Source: Candidatus Woesebacteria bacterium GW2011_GWB1_33_38 (lineage in GTDB: Bacteria > Patescibacteriota > Microgenomatia > UBA8517). From it: 33,819 nt of DNA. The translations under genes were made by a program, and so were the position numbers. Position 1 is the stretch's first letter. Every line of letters starts with the position of its first letter. Shown one piece after another: positions 2,695 to 30,377 of this stretch. The DNA lies in contig LBPF01000011.1 in assembly GCA_000990005.1 (NCBI GenBank), positions 1 through 33,819 on the forward strand, in the 5' to 3' direction. The notes under the pieces are model-generated. The model saw only the letters and a program-made list of their open reading frames with translations, had not been told where the DNA came from and did not search any database.

Positions 2695-3285
2695 ATGGAA
2701 TCGTACAATTTAGGAGTTTTATCTAAAAAAATATTAGAATCTGGCATAGATTTGTTTTCTTCAAAAACCTTAATAAAATTATTAGAAATTAATAATGAGA
2801 GGACTTTTTATAGGATTATTAACGATTTTATTAAAAATAAAATCTTAATTAGCATCGAAAAAGATAAATATTGCATAGCAGGTAAAAATATTAATTCGTT
2901 TAAAATTGCAAATTTTTTATACCAGCCTTCATATATTTCACTTGAAACAGCATTAAATTATTGGGGAATTTTATCACAATTCCCATTTGAAGTGGCTAGC
3001 ATTACCTTAAAAAAGAGTGTTACTAAAAAGTTTGATGGAAAAGTATATGTTTTTAGCCATATTTCAAGTAAGTATTACGGAATGTTTACAAAGAAGGATG
3101 GAATGCTAATTGCACTTCCAGAAAAAGCACTTTTTGACCAAATATATTTTGCTTCAAAGGGAATTAGGCTTATTAATTTTAATGAATATGATTTAAAAAA
3201 TATTAATAAAAGAAGATTTTTTGAAATATGTAAACAATTAAAAGCAGATAGCAATATAATGAATTTAGCTAATAAAACATGTTAA
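2695..3285 (+). CDS. AbiEi-like antitoxin / transcriptional regulator (module 2)
   Basis: A 196-aa protein of the AbiEi type. The N-terminal ~65 residues look like a winged helix (ERTFYRIINDFIKNKILISI), followed by the characteristic NFLYQPSYISLETALNYWGI segment at about residue 75-95 and a C-terminal domain with PEKALFDQIYFASKGI. In known AbiE systems this protein represses its own operon and neutralises the NTase partner. It overlaps the toxin gene by 7 nt (ATGTTAA). It is a clear paralogue of the protein at 26212-26796. Its promoter overlaps the end of the rpsA region and predicts a leaderless message. Confidence 0.85.
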   Translation: MESYNLGVLSKKILESGIDLFSSKTLIKLLEINNERTFYRIINDFIKNKILISIEKDKYCIAGKNINSFKIANFLYQPSYISLETALNYWGILSQFPFEVASITLKKSVTKKFDGKVYVFSHISSKYYGMFTKKDGMLIALPEKALFDQIYFASKGIRLINFNEYDLKNINKRRFFEICKQLKADSNIMNLANKTC

Positions 3286-4046
3286 CCATTAATCAAGTAA
3301 AAGAACTTTCAAAACATTTAAAAATAAATGATAGTGTAATAATTAGGGAATATGTGCAACAGATTTTTTTAAAGGAACTATACGAAGAAAAATATTCTAG
3401 AAACATATTTTTTAAGGGAGGTACAGCAATACGATTAATTCTTGGAGGGACAAGATTTTCTGAAGATTTGGACTTCACGGTAGATGGAAATATAAGAGAT
3501 TTTAATTTGTTTATTAGTAAATTTTTTAAAAAACTTGAAAAATTATATGGATTTAACTTTAAGAAAAGAACAACAACTGTAGGTGAAAAATATTTACTAA
3601 CTGTTGATTCAAAAACTAATGATTATAAAATATATGTAAATTTAGACTTTTCCTTTAGAGAGAAAGTATTAGTGCCTGCCAAAGAAATTATCTCTACTGA
3701 CTATCCAGTCATTTTTACTTCCTTTATTACCTATATGGATAAAGAAGAAATATTAGCTGAAAAAATTAGAGCGATAATGACAAGAGAAAAAGGTCGTGAT
3801 ATTTATGACTTATGGTTTTTGTTAAACAAGAATATTTTGATAAGACAGGAATTAATCAAAGAAAAATTAAAATATTATAGTATTTATAAATTTGAATTTA
3901 ATGATTTAATTAAAAGAATTGAAAAATTTAGTAAAGAAAAATTTGTATTAGACCTAAGACCTTTCGTGCCTATAAATGAAAGAGAAAAGCTTGCATATTT
4001 TTTTGATTATATTATTTCTTTTTTGAAGAAAAAATTACATCAATGA
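3279..4046 (+). CDS. AbiEii-like nucleotidyltransferase toxin (module 2)
   Basis: A 255-aa NTase of the AbiEii family. The core motif is KGGTAIRLILGG (residues 46-57) plus RFSEDLDF (59-66). The conserved C-terminal segment REKGRDIYDLWFLL supplies further active-site residues typical of the family. Expected role: toxin that adds nucleotides to an RNA or protein target, held in check by the upstream AbiEi-like protein. Its stop overlaps the radA start as ATGA (4043-4046), so radA is likely translated by coupling from this gene. It is a paralogue of the NTase at 26793-27509. Confidence 0.85.
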   Translation: MLTINQVKELSKHLKINDSVIIREYVQQIFLKELYEEKYSRNIFFKGGTAIRLILGGTRFSEDLDFTVDGNIRDFNLFISKFFKKLEKLYGFNFKKRTTTVGEKYLLTVDSKTNDYKIYVNLDFSFREKVLVPAKEIISTDYPVIFTSFITYMDKEEILAEKIRAIMTREKGRDIYDLWFLLNKNILIRQELIKEKLKYYSIYKFEFNDLIKRIEKFSKEKFVLDLRPFVPINEREKLAYFFDYIISFLKKKLHQ

Positions 4047-8915: not shown

Positions 8916-9998
8916 ATGGATGATTTTGTCAAAATTGCAGATGAGTTAAAGGTTTTTTCAAAAGAACTTTTATTTTATTTAAACAAAAAACTTCATTTTT
9001 CATACATTCATTTAGAAGAAAATAAAAATGCATTTGTTTCGTCTTTATATAAACAAAGAGGTAGGCTTTCAAGAAAGTTAATTCATACGGGTATGGCAGG
9101 TTTAGTTGGTGTTGGTATGATGATAGCTCCGGTTATAGCACAGGAATTCCCAGGTAGAAGTGTTAACCCTTGGGAAGTTGAAGGAAGTCCACAAGTACTT
9201 TCAGCCACATCAGAATCTGATGGTATCGAAACTTTGGTTTCTGAAAAAGTAAGAGATGGAATTAAAGAATTTAAAGTAGAGGAGGGAGATACTGTTGCCT
9301 CAATTTCCAAAAAATTTGGGGTAGATGAAAATACTATTCGTTGGCAAAATAATTTAGTAAATGACAAGATAAAAATAGGTCAAGTTTTGCAAATCCTACC
9401 AGTTACAGGTATTGCCCATAAGGTAGTAAAAGGTGATACGGTTTATTCGATTGCTAAGCGTTTTGATACAGAAGCGCAGGGGATTGTAGATTTTCCATTT
9501 AACGCATTTAGTAATGATGAAACATTTGAACTGGCAATTGGTCAAATAGTTATTGTTCCAGACGGTGTCAAACCTGCTGAGGTTACTGCTTCACCAAGAA
9601 TTAAGCAAATCACACCCGATGCAGGATCTATTGTTGCTTCCGGAAGTTTTGTTTGGCCAACCAATGGTACGATTTCTCAGAATTTTGCTTGGTATCATCC
9701 AGGGCTTGATATAGCCAATCGTGCTGTACCAAACATCTTAGCTGCCGATTCCGGCACTGTAACATATGCTGGATGTCTAAATTGGGGCTACGGTTGTCAT
9801 GTTAGGGTTGATCATGGCAATGGATATACAACGCTTTATGCCCATCTCCAACAGATTTATGTGACAGTAGGCCAAAGAGTGGGAAGGGGTAATACCATAG
9901 GTAAAATGGGTTCTACAGGAAGATCTACAGGACCCCATCTTCACTTTGAAATTGTTCGAAACGGAGTCAAACTGTCACCATTGACAGTTTTGAAGTAA
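8916..9998 (+). CDS. LysM / M23 peptidoglycan endopeptidase
   Basis: A 360-aa envelope protein. An N-terminal cytoplasmic stretch is followed by a hydrophobic segment at about 57-76 (MAGLVGVGMMIAPVIA), either a signal anchor or a late signal peptide. Two LysM repeats follow (about 118-162, VEEGDTVASISKKFGV; and 167-216, VVKGDTVYSIAKRF). The M23 domain at about 244-355 has the zinc ligands H261 and D265 and the HLH motif at 341-343, with H310 also conserved, so it should be an active metallopeptidase cutting peptide cross-links. LysM repeats target it to glycan. It starts 12 nt after the ATPase stop and has its own promoter. Confidence 0.93.
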   Translation: MDDFVKIADELKVFSKELLFYLNKKLHFSYIHLEENKNAFVSSLYKQRGRLSRKLIHTGMAGLVGVGMMIAPVIAQEFPGRSVNPWEVEGSPQVLSATSESDGIETLVSEKVRDGIKEFKVEEGDTVASISKKFGVDENTIRWQNNLVNDKIKIGQVLQILPVTGIAHKVVKGDTVYSIAKRFDTEAQGIVDFPFNAFSNDETFELAIGQIVIVPDGVKPAEVTASPRIKQITPDAGSIVASGSFVWPTNGTISQNFAWYHPGLDIANRAVPNILAADSGTVTYAGCLNWGYGCHVRVDHGNGYTTLYAHLQQIYVTVGQRVGRGNTIGKMGSTGRSTGPHLHFEIVRNGVKLSPLTVLK

Positions 9999-10111
9999 TT
10001 ATATATTATTTATTTTTTGGAATTGGGGCTATTTTTTTGTTGTTTTTACATCAATCAACCCAAACAAATTAAATTTCTTTTTAGGCATTAATACCATTAT
10101 AATAAGGGATT

Positions 10112-10182
10112 GGGCTGTTAGTACAGCGGTAGTACATACCCTTCGCATGGGTAAAACGGCGGTCCGACTCCGCCACAGTCCA
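10112..10182 (+). tRNA. tRNA-Ala (anticodon CGC)
   Basis: A 71-nt cloverleaf folds cleanly. The acceptor stem is GGGCTGT with ACAGTCC, including the G3-U70 pair that is the main alanine identity element. The D-arm is GTAC/GTAC, the anticodon stem ACCC/GGGT with loop TTCGCAT (anticodon CGC at 10144-10146), and the T-arm GGCGG/CCGCC with loop TCCGACT. The discriminator is A and no CCA is encoded, so CCA must be added. TATAAT at 10098-10103 is a likely -10 box. Its last six bases are part of the 123-nt repeat that recurs at 12029. Confidence 0.93.
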
Positions 10183-10299
10183 CTTGACATTTTTATAGAA
10201 TAAATAATAATTAAACTATGAAACTAAAACCACTTCATCCCAAGAAATACTTTTTACGATTCTTATCGCTTGCCAACAAGTTTTTGATGAACCTGAAGC
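10177..10299 (+). repeat. 5' direct repeat R1, copy 1
   Basis: This 123-nt segment starts in the last bases of tRNA-Ala (AGTCCA), contains TTGACA (10184-10189), AT-rich -10 candidates (TAATAA/TAATTA near 10205-10213) and the first codons from ATG 10218, and matches 12029-12152 (124 nt). The only differences I see are one A in the AT-rich leader and the length of a short A-run (A2 here, A4 there). Homology stops abruptly after GAACCTGAAGC. Confidence 0.92.
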
Positions 10300-10831
10300 C
10301 AGTTTTTGCCCATGTGATATAAAAACGGAAGGTTATACACATGTGTGCGTGGATAACAAAATTAAAATATGTAAATGTAATAACTCAACACGACTTTGTG
10401 GTTTCGTTGAAACTTATAATGGTAATTGTTCTAAAACAGGTAAGATTTGTGTTGAAAAAAATTCATGTCAAGCCGGTTGCGAATATAAACCAGATGATGT
10501 TTGCGTAGGTGGTGGTATTACTGTAGGTGATTTTAGATGTCAGGAAGGCATAGATAATAATAAACGAGATATTTGTTCGTCCGAGGGACTTTGGAAGTAT
10601 TTTGATGATTGTGCAGTTTATGGTATGAAGTGTAATCGGGACGCCCGGAAGTGTATCCGCATAACTAGTAGCACCAAACCAACTATTAAACCAACTCCAA
10701 AACCAACCACAACATCAAAATCAACCACAACCCCAAAACCAGTTATTTTACCATGTGCCTTTACTTGTGTTCCTTCAAAAATTGAATGTTTAGAAAACGA
10801 TGGTGTTGTAAAATCTAATATCGAAATATAA
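10218..10831 (+). pseudogene. Cysteine-rich, P/T/K-linker protein, copy 1 (frameshifted near the 5' end)
   Basis: The ORF track starts at GTG 10343, but the frame is coding-like further upstream (CQQVFDEPEASFCPCD), while the promoter and ATG 10218 point to an N-terminus MKLKPLHPKKYFLRFLSLA in a different frame. The frames would join if GCCAACAAG held three A residues rather than two. The body has more than 15 cysteines, followed by a low-complexity linker (TKPTIKPTPKPT...) and a C-terminal block CAFTCVPSKIECLENDGVV identical to copy 2. It is probably an extracellular disulphide-rich protein, though the N-terminal segment is a weak signal sequence. Either a pseudogene, a phase-variable gene or one read by -1 slippage at GTTTTTG. 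I do not recognise the family. Confidence 0.55.
10720..10818 (+). repeat. 3' direct repeat R2, copy 1
   Basis: These 99 nt, covering the end of the linker and the C-terminal cysteine block of the first cysteine-rich gene, are identical to 12555-12653. The identity stops at AAATCTAA, just before the two genes end with different codons. Confidence 0.93.
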
Positions 10832-10840
10832 TATATTTTT

Positions 10841-11437
10841 ATGAAAAAAATCGAAACAATATGGAGTTATTTGCTTTGGTTGGCAATTGAAAAAGGGGAA
10901 TTTAAACATACTCAAAAAGCTATAGCCGAATATTTTGACTATTCATTAAGTACAGTAAATTTGGCCGTAAAGCAATTAGCTTTAATAAATGGGATTGATG
11001 TCCGTGGTAAATTTTTTATTGTTAACGATCCTAAAAAAATACTGATATTTTGGTCAACCCATAGAAATATTCAAAAAAGTATTATCTATGAAACTTATGT
11101 AAATGCTCCAATATTGGAAATTGAAGGTCTGATCCCAGCCGAGGTTATATTTGCAGGATATACTGCAGCTAAACATATTTTGAAAGAATCTCCGTCAGAC
11201 TATTCAAAAGTTTATTTTTATATTGATGAGAGAAAAATTATTGAAGTGGAAAATCGTTTTCCGAAAATTGTTGGTACTCCCAATTTAATCATATTAAAAG
11301 CTTATCCAAAACAAATAGAGTGTGGAAACATCACTACTCTTGCTCAAACATTTGTGGACATTTGGAATATGGGTGATTGGTATGCAAAAGATTTTTTAAT
11401 AGAATTGGAAGGGAAAATAGATGGCTTATTATCATGA
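10841..11437 (+). CDS. Winged-helix antitoxin-like regulator (module 3)
   Basis: A 198-aa protein. The N-terminal ~60 residues form a predicted winged helix-turn-helix (QKAIAEYFDYSLSTVNLAVKQLA), followed by a domain with PAEVIFAGYTAAKHIL typical of regulators paired with NTase toxins. It overlaps the next gene by 17 nt, indicating an operon. TATAAT at 10827-10832 is 8 nt before its ATG, so it may be transcribed leaderless from its own promoter inside the end of the cysteine-rich gene. Its likely role is autorepression and neutralisation of the NTase. It is not closely similar to the AbiEi-like proteins of modules 2 and 4. Confidence 0.7.
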   Translation: MKKIETIWSYLLWLAIEKGEFKHTQKAIAEYFDYSLSTVNLAVKQLALINGIDVRGKFFIVNDPKKILIFWSTHRNIQKSIIYETYVNAPILEIEGLIPAEVIFAGYTAAKHILKESPSDYSKVYFYIDERKIIEVENRFPKIVGTPNLIILKAYPKQIECGNITTLAQTFVDIWNMGDWYAKDFLIELEGKIDGLLS

Positions 11438-12038
11438 TTTGGTCACAGAGAAAAGTTGGGAAGAACTTAAGAAATTAAGTAAATCTATAGATTTACTTTT
11501 AATTGGTGGCTGGGCAGTTTATTTATATACAAAAGCTTTAAAATCAAAAGATATTGATATTTTGATTGAATATTCAGAACTTATTAAATTGAAGAAAGAT
11601 TATGAGTTAAACAAAAATGAACGACTTTTAAAATATGAGGCAAGACGAGAAGAAATACAAATTGATATTTATCTTCCACATTATTCAAACATTGGGATTC
11701 CAATAGAGGATCTAATAAAACAAAAAATTTCTCTTGAAGGTTTTATGGTAATAAAAAAAGAATATTTAATTGCACTAAAACTCTTTACGCTTAAAGAAAG
11801 AGGAAGAACTCCAAAAGGAAAAAAAGATTTTTTGGACTTGCTTTCTTTGTTTTTAACAGATGATATTGATATAAAACAAATTTATATTTTAACCAATAAA
11901 TATAAACTAGGCTCGTCAACCTCTTTTTTTGAAGAGATGTTGAATGAATATGTTGAAGTTCCTGAAATTGGTCTGAATAAACATTTATTTAAAAAACTCA
12001 AAGTAAAAATACTTAAATCTCTGGTCAAGTCCACTTGA
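11421..12038 (+). CDS. Nucleotidyltransferase toxin-like protein (module 3)
   Basis: A 205-aa NTase-fold protein with IGGWAVYLYT (about residues 28-37) and the metal-binding K-S-K-D-I-D-I-L segment at about 41-48, the minimal GG...DxD arrangement of NTase toxins. A second acidic strand IQIDIYLPH follows. It is more divergent than the AbiEii proteins of modules 1, 2, 4 and 5. Its final codons (KSST-type end, stop TGA at 12036-12038) lie inside the R1 copy 2 repeat, so the 3' end of this gene was shaped by the duplication. It may have lost its original C-terminus. Confidence 0.7.
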   Translation: MAYYHDLVTEKSWEELKKLSKSIDLLLIGGWAVYLYTKALKSKDIDILIEYSELIKLKKDYELNKNERLLKYEARREEIQIDIYLPHYSNIGIPIEDLIKQKISLEGFMVIKKEYLIALKLFTLKERGRTPKGKKDFLDLLSLFLTDDIDIKQIYILTNKYKLGSSTSFFEEMLNEYVEVPEIGLNKHLFKKLKVKILKSLVKST

Positions 12039-12152
12039 CATTTTTATAGAATAAATAATAATTAAACTATGAAACTAAAACCACTTCATCCCAAGAAATA
12101 CTTTTTACGATTCTTATCGCTTGCCAAAACAAGTTTTTGATGAACCTGAAGC
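12029..12152 (+). repeat. 5' direct repeat R1, copy 2
   Basis: Second copy of the 123-nt repeat found at 10177-10299. It includes the tRNA-derived AGTCCA, TTGACA (12036-12041), the AT-rich -10 region and ATG 12069. It differs by one missing A in the leader and by an A4 run (12126-12129) in place of A2. Confidence 0.92.
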
Positions 12153-12660
12153 AAAAGGAGGTGGAGGGTGTTTTGATAGCTGTAGTGTTGATACGGAAGG
12201 GTATGAAGCTTGTCAGAATAATACGATTTATACCTGTGTCAAAAAATATGGCAAATACTTTTTTGATATAACAGAAAAATGTCGATCTGGATATAAATGT
12301 TTTGTTGAGGGTAATGGTAAACAATGTACTTTTGGTTGTATGTTGGATAACTCTAATGATTGTCAAATTGAAGGTGATTTTCAATGTGCATCAATGAAGA
12401 TGGATACCAAAAGGTACAGATGCACTGATGGCGTTTTGCAATTTTGGGAAGATTGTGCAAAGACACGTTATAATGGTTGGTGTAATCCTAACAGTGGAAA
12501 ATGTATGGCTCGTGCAACTGATAAACCTACTATTAAACCAACACCAAAACCATCATCAACCACAACCCCAAAACCAGTTATTTTACCATGTGCCTTTACT
12601 TGTGTTCCTTCAAAAATTGAATGTTTAGAAAACGATGGTGTTGTAAAATCTAAAATGTAG
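12069..12660 (+). pseudogene. Cysteine-rich, P/T/K-linker protein, copy 2 (frameshifted near the 5' end)
   Basis: Same N-terminal codons as copy 1 from ATG 12069, reaching a stop as AGT TTT TGA. The long cysteine-rich frame (track start TTG 12121) is offset by one base; removing one A from the A4 run at 12126-12129 would join them to MKLKP...LAKQVFDEPEA. The body keeps many cysteines and the DTEGY and DGDFQC-like spacing of copy 1 but is otherwise divergent. It then has the DKPTIKPTPKP linker and the identical CAFTCVPSKIECLENDGVV block. TTT TGA T is also a classic +1-shift-prone string. The stop overlaps the end of the convergent Fic gene by 11 nt. Function unknown; probably extracellular. 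Confidence 0.55.
12555..12653 (+). repeat. 3' direct repeat R2, copy 2
   Basis: Identical over 99 nt to 10720-10818, ending at the same AAATCTAA junction. Here the junction leads directly into the stop region of the opposite-strand Fic gene. Confidence 0.93.
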
Positions 12661-13591
12661 ACCTACCTTTACCGTGGGGGAGAAGTATTCCCAGGTTTGC
12701 CATTTTTGACAAGTCTCTGGAAGCTGTAATTTGACTGACTTTAAAAATCTTCTGCACATCTTTATTGGTTATTTTTTGATTTGGATTCTCTAAAGTACCC
12801 ATAATTTTATTTTGTCTATCTGTAAGTTTCCAACCAAGTTGTCTTACGGGTTCGGAACCTGTAAGTTCAAGATTTTTCAATACTTTTTCCATTCCCAGTT
12901 TAACTCCCTGTGTAAAATATTCAAGCCATTTTGTTGCGTTTTTGTAACGCTCAATTGAATTTGTAGCCTCTTTTAATGAAACTAAATCATCTCTATAGTA
13001 ATCTTCTAAAACTAGAAATCCATTAAGGTCGTAGCCGTATTTGGAAAGAATCAGGTGGGATAAAATTCTTGCAACCCTGCCTGTGGCATTTTCAAAAGGC
13101 GAAAGTTTAATAATTTCAATCTGAATAAGTCCAGATTGTATAACTGGATGGTCTTTACCCGATTCTATAAACTCAAGTATTTTGTTAACCTCAATTTCTT
13201 TAGATTTAAAGTACGAGGCTGTTGAACCGAAAACACTTTTACATAGTAAGTCATAAATATCCAGAATTTTTTTAGGATTTAGTAAGTTTTTTGAACCTGT
13301 CCATTCATTTCTAATATAATTTAAAGTGTTTATATAATTGATAACCTCTTTTTCCTCACCCGACATCTTTTTAGGTAGAGGAGATGAAAGAAGCTTAACA
13401 ATCTGTGTTTTTGAAAGTTTATTATCAGCTAAAGTTAAACCCCAATATGTTTTATTAATATTACTTTCCCAACGGATTTTCTGCTCAATTTTTGGTAAAA
13501 GTGGAGTTAGTAGTATCTTTGTACGTAAGGCTTCAATCTCTTTTAGTGATGTAGTAATTTTATCTGATAAATGGTATGACAGGTTAACCAT
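12650..13591 (-). CDS. Fic-domain protein with degenerate active site
   Basis: A 313-aa Fic-fold protein with a C-terminal winged helix (ITNKDVQKIFKVSQITASRDL). The Fic loop, canonically HPFx[D/E]GNGR, reads SPFENATGR at 164-172: the catalytic histidine is serine, and the anion-hole GNG is altered. The N-terminal inhibitory motif is also unrecognisable (SNINKTYWGLTLADN). AMP transfer is therefore unlikely; a regulatory or structural role is possible. A REP-like palindrome lies inside the coding sequence and encodes LTGSEPVRQL. The promoter TTGACG-17-TAAGAT (13627-13599, minus strand) is 7 nt before the ATG. Confidence 0.85.
   Translation of the reverse strand: MVNLSYHLSDKITTSLKEIEALRTKILLTPLLPKIEQKIRWESNINKTYWGLTLADNKLSKTQIVKLLSSPLPKKMSGEEKEVINYINTLNYIRNEWTGSKNLLNPKKILDIYDLLCKSVFGSTASYFKSKEIEVNKILEFIESGKDHPVIQSGLIQIEIIKLSPFENATGRVARILSHLILSKYGYDLNGFLVLEDYYRDDLVSLKEATNSIERYKNATKWLEYFTQGVKLGMEKVLKNLELTGSEPVRQLGWKLTDRQNKIMGTLENPNQKITNKDVQKIFKVSQITASRDLSKMANLGILLPHGKGRSTF
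12843..12865. repeat. REP-like palindrome inside the Fic gene
   Basis: CTTACGGGTTCGGAACCTGT followed by AAG, an imperfect palindrome (one mismatch in 11 bp arms) around the core GGTTCGGAACC that also flanks the RAYT transposase at 16292-16930. Confidence 0.75.
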
Positions 13592-13776: not shown

Positions 13777-13920
13777 ATGTTAAAAAATATAGGTGCAACT
13801 GAAATTATAGTAATTGCTGTTTTACTTTTAGTCTTTTTTGGAGGTAAAAAACTTCCGGAACTTGCAAAAGGAATTGGTGATTCTATAAAAGAGTTCAAGA
13901 ATGCAGTAAAAGGAAAGTAA
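13777..13920 (+). CDS. TatA/TatE-like protein (47 aa, not in ORF track)
   Basis: A 47-aa protein translated by hand. It has a hydrophobic N-terminal helix (IIVIAVLLLVFFGGKKLPEL) followed by a short amphipathic helix (KGIGDSIKEFKNAVKGK), the hallmark of TatA/TatE with the FGxxKLPEL hinge. TatA oligomers form the pore of the twin-arginine translocase. It is shorter than typical TatA (60-90 aa) but complete in the conserved part. A ribosome site GGGGTGA lies upstream. It ends 3 nt before the 777-aa surface protein gene, so the two are probably co-transcribed. It is closely similar to the protein at 17321-17473. Confidence 0.88.
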   Translation: MLKNIGATEIIVIAVLLLVFFGGKKLPELAKGIGDSIKEFKNAVKGK

Positions 13921-13923
13921 TAT

Positions 13924-16257
13924 ATGTGTTCTGCCCAAAATAAATTATATAAATCGCACAGGATATGTGCAAAGATTGCTACTCTCACAATGGGGGTAGC
14001 TTTCTTGTTATTAAGTACTGGAAACGTCATGGCTGCAGACACCACAATTGGAGAGTATTTGTATGATGATAATTATTTACCCGATACTGGAGCTGTTTGT
14101 GTCTTAAATGTTAAAAATCCTGATAGTAGTGCAAATATTACAAATCAATCATTAACAACTACAGCTGACGGGTGGTATGGACATACTTTTACTTCACCTT
14201 CTACAGTTGGTTATTATCGAGCTGAAATATGCTGTGACACTGGGGGGGATCATCTATGTATAGACAAAAGCTTCGAAATTAATGAGGCTGTAGACAGTAA
14301 TCCGTCGACTAACGACATCTCTTCCGCTGTTTGGGGATATTCTGGAAGAACACTGACTGGATTTAATAATCTTGTCTCGGATATTTGGGGATACGCTACT
14401 AGAAAATTGACAAGTGGAGAAAATATTGTAACCACCATTACTTCAACAAACATTGAAGAGATTAAAACAACATCTGATGAAACAAGACTATTATTGGAAC
14501 AACTTGTTAATAAGCCAATTATTGAAAATTCTTTTGAGGAGTTTACTGATTTTGATTTGATTGGAAAAATAAAAGATGGTCAAAAAGTATCAAACGAACT
14601 CTATATTAGTATACTTTTGGCACAATCTACAATTGATAGGGTAACAAAAGATTGGGGTAAACTATCAAATAATCAAATAGTTGAGTCTATAAGTGAAGTT
14701 AAAGAAGTATTAGGTGAAGAGTCTGATTCATCAAGCTCTGATACTTTGTTCGGTAGAGTAAATTTTTTGAGAGATTCCTTTGGATATAAAGAGGCTGATT
14801 TGATATATGAAGATATCCAAGCAGTTAAAGATTCCTTGAATTTTACTCAAACGACACTTGCGGTTAATGGGCAAAAAACCGTTTCTCTACAAAAAGAGTT
14901 TTCAAGCGGATCAACCTACCTTAAATCAAGTGAAAAGTCACTTGCAATTATTAATAAAAGACTCAAAGAGTCAGAAGGATTGTCTACTCTAATTGATACA
15001 AATTTAAATCAAGCCATAAATGTATTAGGTGGCTGGACAACAATGACTGAAAGAGAAAAGAATGAATCAGTCGATGGGTTAACTAAATCGACATTATCTT
15101 TAAATAGAGTTCCAAAAGTTTCAAATGTGCTATCTTCTGTATATGAAAACATAGTTGGAGATAAAAAACTTAAGAATAAACTTTTTTCGATTCGTGCAAT
15201 ATTATATTCAAATAAAAAACTTCTAGCAAATGGATCAAAGGCAGTTTTACTAACAAATTGGCTTGAAGAGGGTAGTTTGGTTATAAAAACCTTAATTACA
15301 AATCCATCAACCCTGATTTCTCAAGACGTACCGCTTAGATATTATCTTCCAAAAGAGCTTAAGAAGGAGGATGTAATTGAAACTGATGCTGGAGTAGAAG
15401 TTAAATATGATACAGATCAAGAACAATTATATGTTGAGGGTAACTTTATTCTTAAGCCTGCAGAAACAAAAACAATTAAAGTTAGAGTTGAAGATGTTTG
15501 GACTATAAGTGAGGGAGAAATTGATACTCTTAAAGCACAATCAGATAGTTTGATTAAGCCATTAGAAAAGTCTGCCTTTTTTGCTCAAGGAATAACACTA
15601 AAAAGTGATATTGATATTTCACTTGAAAAGGCAAGGGGACTAATTAAAGATGGTGTAACTCCTGAAGCAAAGATTAAATCGTATAGAGAAGCTGAGCTTG
15701 AAATCATAAGCGCAGAAGAAAAGTTAGAAAAACTTAAAGATATGGTCAGTCAAGCAAGTTCCTCAGGATCGATTTTAGGCTTTGTTGGTGGAAGCCAAGC
15801 AATTGCAGTTTGGGGAATAGTCTTAGCGGTCGCAACTGCTTTTGTATTCATGACAGTTTATATGAAAAAGTTAATGGGAAAAGAGACTGCCAAGGCAAAA
15901 GTCGTTGTTCACAAGACTAATAATTATGACAAACTGGCCGTATTTTTAGTAGTTGCTACAATCTCTGGGCTGTTGTCATCAATTGGTGTTAAGAAGTTGG
16001 TTTTACCAACTTACGCAAGCCAAAATAAAGAGGTTCTTGGGACTTCTGTGGTCGATTACAAGACTATTAAAATAGTAAAACTGGTTGACATATCTGGAGT
16101 TGTTAAAACATATCAAAATGAAGGTACTGAGGCAGTTTTAGAAATTTTCGATTCAGGCAAAGTAGCAGTTGAAGTTGAAAGAGGAGAAAAAAGAATTAAG
16201 ATTATTGTTGATCAAAAAGAGGCCTATGTTGACCTTCACAACGTATTTAGCGAGTGA
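13924..16257 (+). CDS. Large secreted, membrane-anchored protein of unknown function
   Basis: A 777-aa protein. It has an N-terminal signal peptide (hydrophobic core TLTMGVAFLLL, likely cleavage after NVMA near residue 37), an Ig-like or beta domain with several cysteines (about 38-130), and two copies of a VWGYxxRxLT motif at about 137-165 of a type seen in phage tail proteins. A long helical, probably coiled-coil region follows (about 180-440), then a beta domain and two transmembrane helices near 625-645 and 668-685 separated by a basic loop, and a small C-terminal domain. It lacks a twin-arginine motif (SHRICAK), so Sec export is more likely despite the tatA-like gene immediately upstream. 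I cannot name the family. Confidence 0.75.
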   Translation: MCSAQNKLYKSHRICAKIATLTMGVAFLLLSTGNVMAADTTIGEYLYDDNYLPDTGAVCVLNVKNPDSSANITNQSLTTTADGWYGHTFTSPSTVGYYRAEICCDTGGDHLCIDKSFEINEAVDSNPSTNDISSAVWGYSGRTLTGFNNLVSDIWGYATRKLTSGENIVTTITSTNIEEIKTTSDETRLLLEQLVNKPIIENSFEEFTDFDLIGKIKDGQKVSNELYISILLAQSTIDRVTKDWGKLSNNQIVESISEVKEVLGEESDSSSSDTLFGRVNFLRDSFGYKEADLIYEDIQAVKDSLNFTQTTLAVNGQKTVSLQKEFSSGSTYLKSSEKSLAIINKRLKESEGLSTLIDTNLNQAINVLGGWTTMTEREKNESVDGLTKSTLSLNRVPKVSNVLSSVYENIVGDKKLKNKLFSIRAILYSNKKLLANGSKAVLLTNWLEEGSLVIKTLITNPSTLISQDVPLRYYLPKELKKEDVIETDAGVEVKYDTDQEQLYVEGNFILKPAETKTIKVRVEDVWTISEGEIDTLKAQSDSLIKPLEKSAFFAQGITLKSDIDISLEKARGLIKDGVTPEAKIKSYREAELEIISAEEKLEKLKDMVSQASSSGSILGFVGGSQAIAVWGIVLAVATAFVFMTVYMKKLMGKETAKAKVVVHKTNNYDKLAVFLVVATISGLLSSIGVKKLVLPTYASQNKEVLGTSVVDYKTIKIVKLVDISGVVKTYQNEGTEAVLEIFDSGKVAVEVERGEKRIKIIVDQKEAYVDLHNVFSE

Positions 16258-16260
16258 TTA

Positions 16261-16285
16261 AATTACGGGTTCGGAACCCGTAATT
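16261..16285. repeat. REP palindrome downstream of the RAYT gene
   Basis: A perfect 25-bp palindrome with 12-bp arms around a central G; core ACGGGTTCGGAACCCGT. It lies between the stop codons of the 777-aa protein and the transposase, so it may also act as a bidirectional terminator-like hairpin. Confidence 0.85.
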
Positions 16286-16291
16286 ATGCAA

Positions 16292-16930
16292 TCAATCAGA
16301 TCTGGACAAATCTAAATCTTCATCCTTGTATTTAAATTCTTCAACAAAATATTTATAAGTTTTTATGTTATTATGTTGCATAAAAGTGCTTTCTTTGAAA
16401 TATTCAAGCACAATATTTTTGTTTACCCAACTTAAATTTATATTTCCCATGTAATGAGCGTAACTGGAAAAAGTATCAATCAAGTTTTTAGTATATTTTA
16501 GTGGGTTTTTATGTATATATCTTGAAATATCAAGTAAATAATCTTTGTTTATTACATTAGTAGCTTTGTATTTACCTTGGAATAGAGGACCCTCCCTTTT
16601 GTATTTTTTGTTAAAATACATGCTATATCTTGTAAAAAGTGATTTAGTAAATTTTTTAATTGAATCTTTGTCTTTCTGTTTGATTAAAAGATGTATATGG
16701 TTTGGCATCAAACAAAAAGCCAAAAGTTCAATCTCATCGTAAAAACTTTTCAGGTTCCGAACCTGGAATCTTGAGCCATCTTCAACAGGTGAAAGACATT
16801 CTTTTAGATAATTTAAGAAGACTTTATAGTCTTGTTCGTCTTGGAAAATTAGATTTTTGTTAATACCTCTGTTGTAGATATGATAAATTGAGTTTGGAAT
16901 GTAATATTTAATTGCATTTTTAGCAGGCAT
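16292..16930 (-). mobile_element. REP-associated tyrosine transposase (RAYT, Y1_Tnp)
   Basis: A 212-aa HUH-family single-strand transposase. It has the N-terminal YHIYNRGINK segment, the HUH motif in CLMPNHIHLLI (about 81-91) and the catalytic-tyrosine helix ISRYIHKNPL (about 143-152), with GPLFQGKYKA between them. RAYT proteins act on single-stranded REP palindromes and are usually single-copy genes flanked by them. Here matching palindromes lie on both sides, and a third, inverted one is inside the coding sequence, contributing SRFQVRNLKS between the two conserved blocks. The gene is intact. It is the last gene after the PrsW-like gene on the same strand. Confidence 0.9.
16750..16764. repeat. 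REP-like palindrome inside the RAYT gene
   Basis: CAGGTTCCGAACCTG, a 15-bp perfect palindrome with a central C. It shows the REP core in inverted orientation relative to the flanking copies and lies within a poorly conserved stretch of the transposase. Confidence 0.8.
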
Positions 16931-16939
16931 ATAAATATA

Positions 16940-17317
16940 TTACATTACGGGTTCGGAACCCGCAAGACTGATTTGGTTGAATAAGTAGTGAATTAGGATT
17001 GCGAGTGTTAGGCCGAGCCACCAGAGATTTCTTTTATGGCGAAGCTGAATCTCATTAAAATATTGCATTACAAGAAGGGTTGTTATGTGCATGGGAGTTA
17101 CTACAAGAAAGCGAAAAAAAGAGGGATTGGGATTAAGAAAATAGAAAACAGCTTCAGAGAAAGAGAATAGAAAACCTAAAATAATAACAACTCTAGTAGA
17201 GCTTGTTGATTTGGCAAGAAATAATTTATATAATTCCTCAATAAAATAAGGGTAGGGCAGGAATTTTTCTACCAATAAAAGAAAGAAAGGGCCAATTAGA
17301 GAGAATAGATAAACCAT
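16940..17317 (-). CDS. Small PrsW/CPBP-like membrane protein
   Basis: A 125-aa, strongly hydrophobic protein with about four transmembrane helices. It carries EELYK (about 27-31), FSFSEAVFYF (about 51-60), PMHITTLLVM (about 75-84) and HYLFNQ (about 110-115). This order of E-E, E and H residues in membrane helices resembles the glutamic-type PrsW/CPBP intramembrane proteases; the match is by motif only and the protein is short for the family. It begins 3 nt after the stop of the preceding tatA-like gene, so it belongs to the Tat operon. Its C-terminal residues are encoded by a REP palindrome, which suggests the original 3' end was altered. Confidence 0.6.
   Translation of the reverse strand: MVYLFSLIGPFFLLLVEKFLPYPYFIEELYKLFLAKSTSSTRVVIILGFLFSFSEAVFYFLNPNPSFFRFLVVTPMHITTLLVMQYFNEIQLRHKRNLWWLGLTLAILIHYLFNQISLAGSEPVM
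16945..16965. repeat. REP palindrome upstream of the RAYT gene
   Basis: CGGGTTCGGAACCCG (16948-16962) with further near-symmetrical flanks (TTA/CAA). It lies 15 nt before the RAYT start and overlaps the 3' end of the PrsW-like gene, supplying its last codons (AGSEPVM). Confidence 0.85.
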
Positions 17318-17320
17318 TTA

Positions 17321-17473
17321 TTAGTTTTCTGATTTGTTGCTAACTGATTTTTTAAATTCTTTGATAGAATCTCCAATTCCTTTTCCAAGTTCTGGCAGTT
17401 TTTTGCCTCCAAAAAGAATTAATAAAACTACGGCAATAATTATAATTTCAGTTGTTCCGATATTTTGTAACAA
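17321..17473 (-). CDS. TatA/TatE-like protein (50 aa, not in ORF track)
   Basis: A 50-aa protein read from TTG 17473. The sequence has NIGTTEIIIIAVVLLILFGG followed by KKLPELGKGIGDSIKEFKKS, an unmistakable TatA helix-hinge-helix. The start codon directly abuts the tatC stop, and GGGAGTGA at the end of tatC can serve as ribosome site. It is nearly the same as the plus-strand protein at 13777-13920, so one is a recent duplicate of the other. Part of the Tat operon. Confidence 0.88.
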   Translation of the reverse strand: MLQNIGTTEIIIIAVVLLILFGGKKLPELGKGIGDSIKEFKKSVSNKSEN

Positions 17474-26211: not shown

Positions 26212-26796
26212 ATGGAATCGTTATCAATCAGCCAAATAATTAAAAAATTGTCTTTAAAAAATATACCTCTGTTTACTATAAACGAACTAGGGGGAATTTT
26301 GGGTACTGATAATCGTCAAACATTATATAAAAGGATTCAAAGACTTACCAAAAGTGATCTTTTGCAAAAACTTATAAAAGGAAGGTATCTGTTTACATTA
26401 AAAGATACAAATGACTTTACGAAATCAAATTTTTTATATCAGCCGTCATATATTTCAATGCAGTCTGCTTTGTCGTTTCATAATATTATGACTGGGTTTT
26501 CATATCAAATTACTGGAATTACTATTAAAAAATCAAAAAAATTTGTAATAAATGATAAAGATTTTAGTTATTCCCAAATAGATCCTAAATTATTTTGGGG
26601 CTTTGAGAAAAAAGAGGACTTTTTGATTGCAACGCCTGAAAAAGCACTACTTGACTATTTATATTTTTCTACAAAAGGAATTAATAACTTGGATTGGAAT
26701 GAAATAGATACAACAAACCTAGACAAGAAACTACTAATAGAGTGGTCAAGAAAGTATAATAAAATTGTTGTAAGGGAGCTTAAAAAGCATATATGA
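26212..26796 (+). CDS. AbiEi-like antitoxin / regulator (module 4)
   Basis: A 194-aa AbiEi-type protein: winged helix in the N-terminal ~60 residues (TDNRQTLYKRIQRLTKSDLL), then SNFLYQPSYISMQSALSFHN and a C-terminal part with TPEKALLDYLYFSTKGI. It aligns by eye along its whole length with the module 2 antitoxin (2695-3285), so the two modules are paralogues. It overlaps its toxin gene by 4 nt (ATGA), indicating translational coupling. Expected to repress the operon and neutralise the NTase. Confidence 0.87.
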   Translation: MESLSISQIIKKLSLKNIPLFTINELGGILGTDNRQTLYKRIQRLTKSDLLQKLIKGRYLFTLKDTNDFTKSNFLYQPSYISMQSALSFHNIMTGFSYQITGITIKKSKKFVINDKDFSYSQIDPKLFWGFEKKEDFLIATPEKALLDYLYFSTKGINNLDWNEIDTTNLDKKLLIEWSRKYNKIVVRELKKHI

Positions 26797-27509
26797 TTAC
26801 TAACGGTCAAATTAAAAATTTAGCAAAAGTTTTTCAAATCGATGAGTATAGTGTATTCAGGGAGTATCTACAGCTAGTATTTTTAAGCTATCTATATCAG
26901 GAAAGAAAAGCCAATAAACTTCTTTTTAAAGGGGGAACGGCCTTAAGGCTGTTTTTTGGGTCACCAAGATTTTCTGAGGATTTAGATTTTTCTACAAATT
27001 ACAATGATTCTGAAATTATTGAGTTGCTTAACAATGTTGTGGTAAAAATAAAAAAAGAACTACCTAATTTTAGAATTATATCGCTACATAAGGGTACAGA
27101 GGGAATACGTTTTAGAATTCTTTTTAATCAAAAAGAATTTAAGTACCCGTTTAGTATCAGACTTGATTTTCACCAAGAAAAAGAAGTAACAGGCGCAGCG
27201 GTTTCAACTTTGTTAACACAGTTTCCACTGATGATTTTTCCTCAAGTCTATCATTTGTCTGGTGAATCAATTTTATTTGAGAAATTTGATGCATTAAAAA
27301 ATAGAAATAAAGGTCGAGATATATTTGATATATGGTTTTTGTTATCAAGGGGTATAAGGATTACTGATGTCAAAAAAAGTGATATTAAAAATATAGATGA
27401 ATTCTCTCAAAAATTACTTGAAAAAGATCTTGGTCAGTTCTTGCCTCATGGCCAAAAACAAATAATAGCTGTTTTAAAACAAGAAATTATAAAATTGTTA
27501 CAAAAATAA
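26793..27509 (+). CDS. AbiEii-like nucleotidyltransferase toxin (module 4)
   Basis: A 238-aa NTase with KGGTALRLFFGS (46-57) and RFSEDLDF (59-66), and the C-terminal KNRNKGRDIFDIWFLLSRG block. It is a full-length relative of the module 2 toxin. Starts within the antitoxin stop codon. It is followed 54 nt later by the second DUF4143 ATPase, which has its own promoter. Confidence 0.88.
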   Translation: MITNGQIKNLAKVFQIDEYSVFREYLQLVFLSYLYQERKANKLLFKGGTALRLFFGSPRFSEDLDFSTNYNDSEIIELLNNVVVKIKKELPNFRIISLHKGTEGIRFRILFNQKEFKYPFSIRLDFHQEKEVTGAAVSTLLTQFPLMIFPQVYHLSGESILFEKFDALKNRNKGRDIFDIWFLLSRGIRITDVKKSDIKNIDEFSQKLLEKDLGQFLPHGQKQIIAVLKQEIIKLLQK

Positions 27510-28868: not shown

Positions 28869-28905
28869 TTGACAAAGTGTTTCTGAAATGGTATGTTTCA
28901 TATAC
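28869..28905 (+). promoter_or_regulatory. Promoter and operator of AbiE-type module 5
   Basis: TTGACA (28869-28874) and TATGTT (28892-28897) with 17-bp spacing. The inverted repeat TGGTAT-gtttcat-ATACCA overlaps the -10 box and is a likely repressor site for the antitoxin. The predicted start point (about 28904) lies after the track's ATG at 28888, which argues for the ATG at 28921. Confidence 0.65.
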
Positions 28906-28920
28906 CAAAAGGGAAACAAA

Positions 28921-29547
28921 ATGAATCGAATAGCAAAATTAACGCTTTTTAAAAATACGCCTGCATTTAACAAGCGTACCTTGCAACGTATCCTAGATAT
29001 TAAAGATGAAGCCTTAAATGCCAATGTTAAAAGATGGTTAAAAAAGGGTGAATTAATTCAACTTAAACGAGGTTGGTATGTAACAAAAGACTATTATCAA
29101 TTGAGTTCAAATAAACAAAATTATTTTGAATGGTTAGCTAACAAATTCAAGGAACCGTCGTATTTATCGATGGAGTATGTATTACAAAAATATAATTTAC
29201 TTTCAGAAGCTGTATATTCGATCACTTCAGTAACATTAAAAAAGACAGGTAATTATTTGAACAATTTTGGTCAATTTAGCTACTATAATATTAACGACAA
29301 CCAATTTATTGGCTATAAAATGTTTCAACGAGGGGAATATAATATCAATGAAGCAACCTTAGCAAAGGCCTTATTCGACTATCTGTATTACAAAATTGGG
29401 AAATTGAATAAAATCACTACTGACTTGTGGGATGATTTACGAATTAACACTGAAGTTATTACTGATGGAGATAAGCTCGAATTTATTAAATATTGTGGGA
29501 TGGAAGGATCAAAAAAGATGAAACAAATTGCAAAATTATTAATATGA
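28921..29547 (+). CDS. AbiEi-like antitoxin / regulator (module 5)
   Basis: The track gives 219 aa from 28888, but that ATG precedes the predicted transcription start. ATG 28921 (MNRIAKLTLF) gives 208 aa and has AAGGGAAA as a possible ribosome site. The protein has an N-terminal winged helix (LQRILDIKDEALNANVKRWL), then EPSYLSMEYVLQKYNLLSEA corresponding to the conserved AbiEi segment, and ATLAKALFDYLYYKIG. It is more distant from modules 2 and 4 but clearly the same type. It overlaps the toxin start as ATGA at 29544-29547. Confidence 0.83.
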   Translation: MNRIAKLTLFKNTPAFNKRTLQRILDIKDEALNANVKRWLKKGELIQLKRGWYVTKDYYQLSSNKQNYFEWLANKFKEPSYLSMEYVLQKYNLLSEAVYSITSVTLKKTGNYLNNFGQFSYYNINDNQFIGYKMFQRGEYNINEATLAKALFDYLYYKIGKLNKITTDLWDDLRINTEVITDGDKLEFIKYCGMEGSKKMKQIAKLLI

Positions 29548-30377
29548 ATATGATTTTAAATGATTTAATTCGGGTATCAGGAGAGTCTAAAAGACTTGGT
29601 ATGTCTGATGGTTACATTAAAAATTACCTAAGAGAATATTTACAAGTTTTTATTCTCAATTTTATTTATTCAAGCAGTAAATTTGGAGACAATCTAATAT
29701 TCACAGGAGGCACTTGCTTGAAACATGTTTACGATCTACCTAGGCTCTCGGAAGATTTGGATTTTGATGTAATAGGTAAATTGACAACAAAAGAATTAGC
29801 CGATGGATTAACTAAATTTTTTAATATTACACATATGTGGAAAGAGGTGACAGTTTCAGTTAAACAACTTGATAGACAAATTTTACTTAAATTTCCATGT
29901 CTTAGAGCCACGGAACTAGCAGGGATGAATGATAGTGACTTACTGTATGTAAAAATGGATCTTAACCGTGATATTGCAAAAGGATATAATGCGGTTGTAA
30001 CCGTAAAATCTGGATATGGAATGAATTACGCGTTAGTACACTATGATTTACCAAGTTTATTTGCTGGTAAAATCTCTGCTGTACTAACTAGAAGACGATT
30101 ATCCGACTATTTTGATTTATTGTGGTTTTTAGAAAATAAAGTAAAACCCAATATGATTAGGTTGAATAATGTGTTAGGGAAAAAAATAACTATAAATAAA
30201 TTAGTAGAATTATTAGATCAAAAAGTAGATGAATTGATGACTAAATATCCATTAGATTTAAAAAGAGATCTGGGTCCGTTTTTGCAAAACCCGAACTTAA
30301 TTGATAGATATATTACAAATTATAAAGAAAGTTATGATGTTGCAAAACAATATCTCACCCTAAGGTCAAAAAAGTGA
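29544..30377 (+). CDS. AbiEii-like nucleotidyltransferase toxin (module 5)
   Basis: The track starts at 29493, but ATG 29544 lies in the ATGA overlap with the antitoxin stop, the pattern used by modules 2 and 4, so I prefer it (277 aa). The NTase core is FTGGTCLKHVYDLPRLSEDL then DFDV (about 53-74). The C-terminal TRRRLSDYFDLLWFLE block corresponds to the conserved helix of the other modules. It ends 3 nt before the stop of the opposite-strand 853-aa gene (convergent). Confidence 0.85.
   Translation: MNMILNDLIRVSGESKRLGMSDGYIKNYLREYLQVFILNFIYSSSKFGDNLIFTGGTCLKHVYDLPRLSEDLDFDVIGKLTTKELADGLTKFFNITHMWKEVTVSVKQLDRQILLKFPCLRATELAGMNDSDLLYVKMDLNRDIAKGYNAVVTVKSGYGMNYALVHYDLPSLFAGKISAVLTRRRLSDYFDLLWFLENKVKPNMIRLNNVLGKKITINKLVELLDQKVDELMTKYPLDLKRDLGPFLQNPNLIDRYITNYKESYDVAKQYLTLRSKK

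Follow-up and report, generated by a model that had tools for sequence, protein, structure and literature searches.

Two cysteine-rich gene units with identical ends and divergent middles flank a toxin-antitoxin-like gene pair at a tRNA-Ala locus of a Woesebacteria genome

Organisation of the Two Units

The window analysed here is a stretch of 33,819 nucleotides from Candidatus Woesebacteria bacterium GW2011_GWB1_33_38, a genome of CPR/Patescibacteria type (845 kb, 97% complete). Downstream of a LysM/M23 peptidase gene and tRNA-Ala(CGC), the window contains two units with the order R1-middle-R2 (10177-10831 and 12028-12660), which have the same orientation and lie 1.85 kb apart (Table 1). A winged-helix (wHTH) gene and a nucleotidyltransferase (NTase) gene are located between the two units, as already described in the initial annotation. 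That annotation had also reported a nearly identical 5′ end and an exactly identical 99-nt 3′ end, and both were confirmed. R1 starts with the last 6 nt of the tRNA and consists of two exact blocks, one of 100 nt (10177-10276 and 12028-12127) and one of 25 nt (10275-10299 and 12128-12152). The only difference between the R1 copies is a 2-nt indel, GCC-AA-CAAG in copy 1 versus GCC-AAAA-CAAG in copy 2. The exact R2 repeat is surrounded by a looser match that covers 142 nt at 91%.

Table 1. Features at the tRNA-Ala locus. Positions refer to the window.
Feature	Position	Strand	Evidence or remark
LysM/M23 peptidase gene, left landmark of the hotspot	8916-9998	+	Pfam PF01551, PF01476
19-codon remnant of a surface-protein gene start, MPKKKFNLFGLIDVKTTKK*	10029-10088	-	aligns to the beginning of the gene MPKRNLNLFGL... 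at the corresponding place in G038
tRNA-Ala(CGC), insertion landmark	10112-10182	+	Rfam RF00005 and ARAGORN
R1 copy 1: tRNA 3′ end, promoter, ATG, N-terminal codons	10177-10299	+	matches copy 2 exactly in two blocks
Promoter-like site TTGACA-16-AATAAT in R1 copy 1	10184-10211	+	11/12 consensus positions
Variable middle A: a pair of Cys-rich modules and the beginning of the P/T/K linker	10300-10719	+	
Cys-rich ORF A	10343-10831	+	GTG 10343 is the first permitted start; frame also open 5′ of it, not the frame of ATG 10219
R2 copy 1: linker and short C-terminal Cys stub	10720-10818	+	99 nt exact
Winged-helix protein gene	10841-11437	+	weak HTH hits; left half of promoter/operator replaced by R2
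DUF6036/AbiEii-like nucleotidyltransferase gene	11421-12038	+	PF19502 above cut-off, AbiEii weak
R1 copy 2: opens with the tRNA 3′-end hexamer AGTCCA, without tRNA	12028-12152	+	exact repeats with copy 1
Promoter-like site in R1 copy 2	12035-12062	+	11/12 consensus positions; ATG at 12070, 7 nt downstream
Cys-rich ORF B	12121-12660	+	sole in-frame start TTG; no signal peptide
Variable middle B	12153-12554	+	
R2 copy 2	12555-12653	+	99 nt exact
Fic/HTH gene, right landmark	12650-13591	-	synteny in G038, G037, G026, G017

The tRNA-Ala Locus in Related Genomes

The M23 gene was found in 45 of the 50 family genomes, mostly adjoining tRNA-Ala, and M23 and tRNA-Ala(CGC) form a pair that is conserved across the family. 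Four relatives (G038, G037, G026 and G017) have an empty site, in which a Fic-like gene lies within approximately 70 nt after the tRNA. Because this gene follows the tRNA directly in all four, synteny shows that the 2.5 kb from 10183 to 12650 are, relative to these genomes, an insertion in the window genome.

Several relatives have large surface-type genes between M23 and tRNA-Ala or adjoining them. The surface genes of G027, G034 and G037 have a common N-terminal anchor of 43-52 residues (52-60% identity) and are different beyond it. Those located beside tRNA-Ala (loci L050, L051, L058, L063 and L070) have in common an N-terminal anchor such as GFIDPLSLIAIGFLVVSLIVGT, and their ectodomains are mostly unrelated. 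Some of the relatives' ectodomains encoded at the M23/tRNA-Ala site are cysteine-rich with P/T linkers. The site is a hotspot for surface genes, at which a family with a constant anchor and a variable ectodomain occupies a single locus. Of such a gene, the window retains no more than the 19-codon start remnant (Table 1).

Further right in the window a gene for a REP-associated tyrosine transposase (RAYT, 16292-16930) is flanked by TTACGGGTTCGGAACCCGTAA palindromes (16257-16283 and 16939-16965). It is 92% identical in G038, and a related palindrome is located inside the Fic gene (12838-12864). Two tatA-like genes (KNIGATEIIVIAVLLLVFFGGKKLPELAKGIGDSIKEFK) are present in inverted orientation at 13778-13907 and 17343-17472, the second one adjoining a TatC-like gene.

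The wHTH/NTase Pair and Its Breakpoints

The NTase matches DUF6036 with 24.0 bits (cut-off 23.6); AbiEii remains below the cut-off, and the wHTH protein has no AbiEi match. The NTase carries GG...DID and a further Asp, and homologues are encoded in G033, G027 and G003. With a DUF6036 NTase, a wHTH protein and overlapping genes, the pair appears to be toxin-antitoxin-like. In G033, a wHTH-NTase pair is located between M23 and tRNA-Ala, and the 3′ end of the NTase gene overlaps the 5′ end of the tRNA. G033 and G027 have a conserved wHTH promoter/operator, TTGACTTTCGAT-N-TCGAAATATACT. Compared with these two genomes, the window has lost the left half of the promoter, including the -35 box, and carries the end of R2 there instead. 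On the other side, R1 supplies the last codons and the stop codon of the NTase gene (AAG TCC ACT TGA), and of the tRNA 3′ end only AGTCCA is left. This hexamer recurs at 12028, where the second unit follows it; no copy of it is present at the right end, next to Fic. Judged by comparison with the relatives, these two breakpoints, R2/wHTH promoter and NTase stop/R1, show that the locus was rearranged.

The NTase/R1 junction (12024-12039) contains the palindrome GTCAAGT-CC-ACTTGAC and, after it, ATTTTT; the arrangement resembles a terminator in a scan and is present at copy 2 only. Three further AbiEi/AbiEii-type pairs were seen within the 34 kb (window positions 2695-4046, 26212-27509 and 28888-30377). 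The content of TA/defence-type genes in the window is unusually dense, since it also includes two genes that probably encode DUF4143-type ATPases and two Fic genes.

Both Cysteine-Rich Genes Are Out of Frame With Their Start Codon

The promoter-like site in R1 copy 1 is located 7 nt upstream of the ATG at 10219. Translation from the ATG yields MKLKPLHPKKYFLRFLSLA and then departs from the frame of the Cys-rich protein. Each copy has a single ATG downstream of the shared promoter, and its frame misses that of the Cys-rich body by one base, in opposite directions in the two copies. No in-frame start was found for the copy 1 body before GTG 10343. Neither unit encodes a complete secreted protein as assembled. 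Because the starts are out of frame, both Cys-rich genes are probably silent in this form. The genes for Rho, M23, Fic, a 777-aa protein, the RAYT transposase and TatC in the window all have full-length matches in G038 without breaks; since these neighbours are intact, a general base-calling error is unlikely to be the cause of the frame breaks.

Comparable breaks were found in surface-type genes of the relatives. In G038, which belongs to the same genus, anchor and ectodomain of the surface gene (L048, 9632-14448) are in different frames that meet at a run of seven A, for which switching by slippage, slippage during transcription, decay and a homopolymer error are all conceivable. The G034 gene (L050, 4220-9405) is split into ORFs of 471 and 1229 aa, which are in different frames and meet near GGAAAACTGG. 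Altogether, four surface-type genes in three genomes (the two window copies, G038 and, probably, G034) are off frame at A-runs; the corresponding surface genes show no such break in G010, G027, G029 and G037. At the A-runs, the present sequences do not separate switching by slippage from decay or from homopolymer error.

Two other readings were rejected. Programmed frameshifting would need opposite shifts in the two copies and hence has no common signal. Copy 1 contains ILFTILIAC, in which LIAC resembles a lipobox, and no start codon belongs to it. Neither Lgt nor LspA was detected in the 97% complete genome, while the controls were positive; it is therefore unlikely that LIAC marks a lipoprotein.

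The Middles Diverged Under Coding Constraint and the Ends Did Not Diverge

The middles of 420 nt (A) and 402 nt (B) align over 125 codons, of which 46 encode identical residues (37%). They contain 16 and 13 cysteines, 12 of which are common to both, confirming that the diverged middles keep a cysteine-rich plan. The proportions of changed sites are pN 0.43 and pS 0.62, so that approximately 62% of the synonymous sites differ. Both Cys-rich bodies are open reading frames; among 20,000 Markov shuffles this did not occur once. The 12 kept cysteines and the open frames show that both middles evolved under coding constraint.

The initial annotation had argued that simple, even divergence is inadequate and that conversion of the ends, cassette exchange of the middle or strong diversification of the middle is needed, and it proposed to compare synonymous divergence inside and outside the repeats. 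The comparison bears out that divergence was not even: R2 has no difference at 23.3 synonymous sites, versus a pS of 0.62 in the middle. By our own arithmetic, the chance of finding zero at the rate of the middle is about 1e-10. An evenly diverging duplication is excluded as the origin of the unit pair. Identity at synonymous sites is not explicable by protein constraint, thus recombination (conversion of the ends, exchange of alleles or replacement of the middle) or a recent import of the ends is required. Identical ends combined with strongly different middles point to recent recombination between divergent versions.

Searches for Further Copies, Homologues and Machinery

The genome assembly contains only these two R1/R2 units. 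The initial annotation had proposed to look in related genomes for R1 and R2 and for the sequences between them; no unit with another middle was found in family and class genomes or in the collections of genome contigs and viral sequences. Homologues of the Cys-rich proteins were absent from the 50 family genomes, save for a chance match in G028, and from 373 class genomes, where a match in G275 is explained by its P/T-rich linker. Genome contigs, viral contigs, phages and plasmids yielded none, nor did the Pfam, NCBIfam and PDB sequences. DNA matches of the P/T linker in relatives and elsewhere in the genome were discarded as low complexity; those on contigs C4 and C1 are in unrelated genes. 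An AlphaFold model of copy B reached a pLDDT of 36 and was useless for identifying the fold. We also compared the Cys modules with the surface proteins of G034, G010, G038, G027, G037 and G021, which revealed nothing convincing beyond cysteine spacing. One short module match with G010 was equalled by 1 of 200 cysteine-keeping shuffles and was not reproduced by copy B.

No RVT_1 match was obtained in the genome, while control genomes were positive. A diversity-generating retroelement is ruled out, as the genome has no reverse transcriptase. The genome contains one tyrosine recombinase, encoded on contig C6, and the window none; the element in the window lacks an integrase of its own, as an integrase-driven tRNA element would carry.

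Discussion

We favour, with roughly even confidence, the explanation that the two units are divergent alleles of one gene for a small secreted or surface Cys-rich protein, which are arranged in tandem around a TA-like wHTH/NTase pair in a tRNA-Ala hotspot. R1 would provide promoter, ATG and signal region, the middle the displayed Cys-rich domain, and R2 the P/T/K linker together with the C-terminal stub. Recombination may have joined a G038-like allele (surface gene, tRNA, unit A) to a G033-like allele (wHTH, NTase, tRNA, unit B). In this fusion one tRNA would have been kept, the wHTH promoter cut and the second tRNA reduced to AGTCCA. We infer that the simplest history is one in which two alleles of this locus were fused and the second tRNA was lost. 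Homologous recombination between strains in R1 and R2 would homogenise the ends, and the middle would be exchanged as a block or its diversity kept by selection. The middle would then be the display domain, and alleles with different middles would be present in the population; these alleles are only inferred, because the collections searched yielded the unit from no other strain or species.

Other histories would also generate parts of this pattern. After an old tandem duplication the middles might have diverged in place, the ends being overwritten lately by gene conversion between the copies and no allele imported. Two copies at this distance and in the same orientation are ideal for conversion, which would yield identical ends and homologous middles. 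However, two separate tracts are required, each stopping sharply at the middle. G038, with an M23 protein that is 86% identical, also lacks the insertion, so that an amino-acid divergence of 63% would have had little time to build up in place unless the genes evolved very rapidly. We regard this history as rather unlikely. It is also unlikely, in our estimate, that a short-read assembler strung strain variants of a single locus across the exact repeats of 99-100 nt. These repeats are close to k-mer size and the starts are out of frame, but the R2/wHTH and NTase/R1 junctions put one unit on each side of the pair, and a path between M23 and Fic cannot include the pair without crossing two units. 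In addition, the copies differ by the 2-nt indel, no stray extra copies occur elsewhere in the assembly, and the neighbouring genes are full-length without frame breaks compared with G038. An artefact keeps some weight because the hypervariable locus of another CPR genome, a gracilibacterium, was misassembled until curated (PMC6851277).

The initial annotation had proposed a variation system for a surface or secreted antigen. A surface role is plausible, because the M23/tRNA-Ala site of relatives is occupied by surface-type genes whose products are often rich in cysteine and contain P/T linkers. A working machine for antigenic variation was not demonstrated, and we consider an active system of cassette switching quite improbable. 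A constant promoter and signal region, a constant linker and an exchangeable displayed middle in a surface-gene hotspot would suit it; however, there are two copies only, both with promoter and ATG, and no silent cassettes. Neither a reverse transcriptase nor a dedicated recombinase accompanies them, no variants were seen in genome and viral collections, and the frames are off. The out-of-frame starts, and a protein that has no relatives in the genomes searched, would also fit decaying pseudogenes carried without present role by a TA-like insertion. This is the least credible of these explanations, as long open bodies and conserved cysteines indicate constraint until recently.

Returning to the two-allele explanation, AbiE has been reported to enable stabilisation of mobile elements (PMC3985639), and by analogy the wHTH/NTase pair could guard the tandem against deletions through R1-R1 or R2-R2 recombination. 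A bolder version, to which we give little credence, is a two-allele module with alternative display domains behind a common promoter, leader and linker, held by the TA-like pair, in which the surface genes of the hotspot are additionally switched on and off by one base at A-runs. In such a module, middle B alone would remain after R1-R1 recombination and middle A alone after R2-R2 recombination, and the wHTH/NTase pair would be lost either way. For the question of how surface proteins diversify in host-dependent bacteria with very small genomes, this locus is a concrete place to seek recombination-driven variation in reads of natural populations. Surface-gene swapping in relatives and two alleles with the same ends in one genome are also a warning that such loci can mislead assemblers.

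In silent-cassette antigen systems, of which vlsE and pilE are examples, gene conversion operates between one expression site and several promoterless donors, which have constant flanks and a variable centre. The window units likewise have constant flanks around a variable centre, but there is no silent cassette library, and each copy has its own promoter and ATG. The type IV TA system AbiE (PMC3985639) resembles the pair between the units in the overlapping genes for a wHTH protein and a polymerase-beta-type nucleotidyltransferase, in the inverted-repeat promoter seen in relatives, and in GG...DID plus a further Asp. In contrast to AbiE, the NTase scores with DUF6036 and only weakly with AbiEii, and the wHTH protein has no AbiEi match. 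The gracilibacterium gene is a hypervariable surface gene with PTD repeats, whose initial assembly was wrong (PMC6851277). Here too a CPR bacterium would diversify a Pro/Thr-rich extracellular protein and the locus may trouble assembly; there, however, nucleotides vary in a short repeat array that conserves the peptide, whereas here whole domains differ between two copies flanking a gene pair. In Thermococcales, VARTIG modules contain a surface-protein domain that is hypervariable by recombination between strains or species and lies beside shuffled genes; the recombinase has not been identified (PMC8416519). VARTIG proteins are large archaeal Ig-domain proteins with a variable C-terminal domain and were compared across many genomes, whereas the protein described here is small and Cys-rich, has a variable middle and is known from one genome. 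As a case in which inter-strain recombination diversifies a domain and no recombinase is known, VARTIG is nevertheless the closest parallel in kind (PMC8416519).
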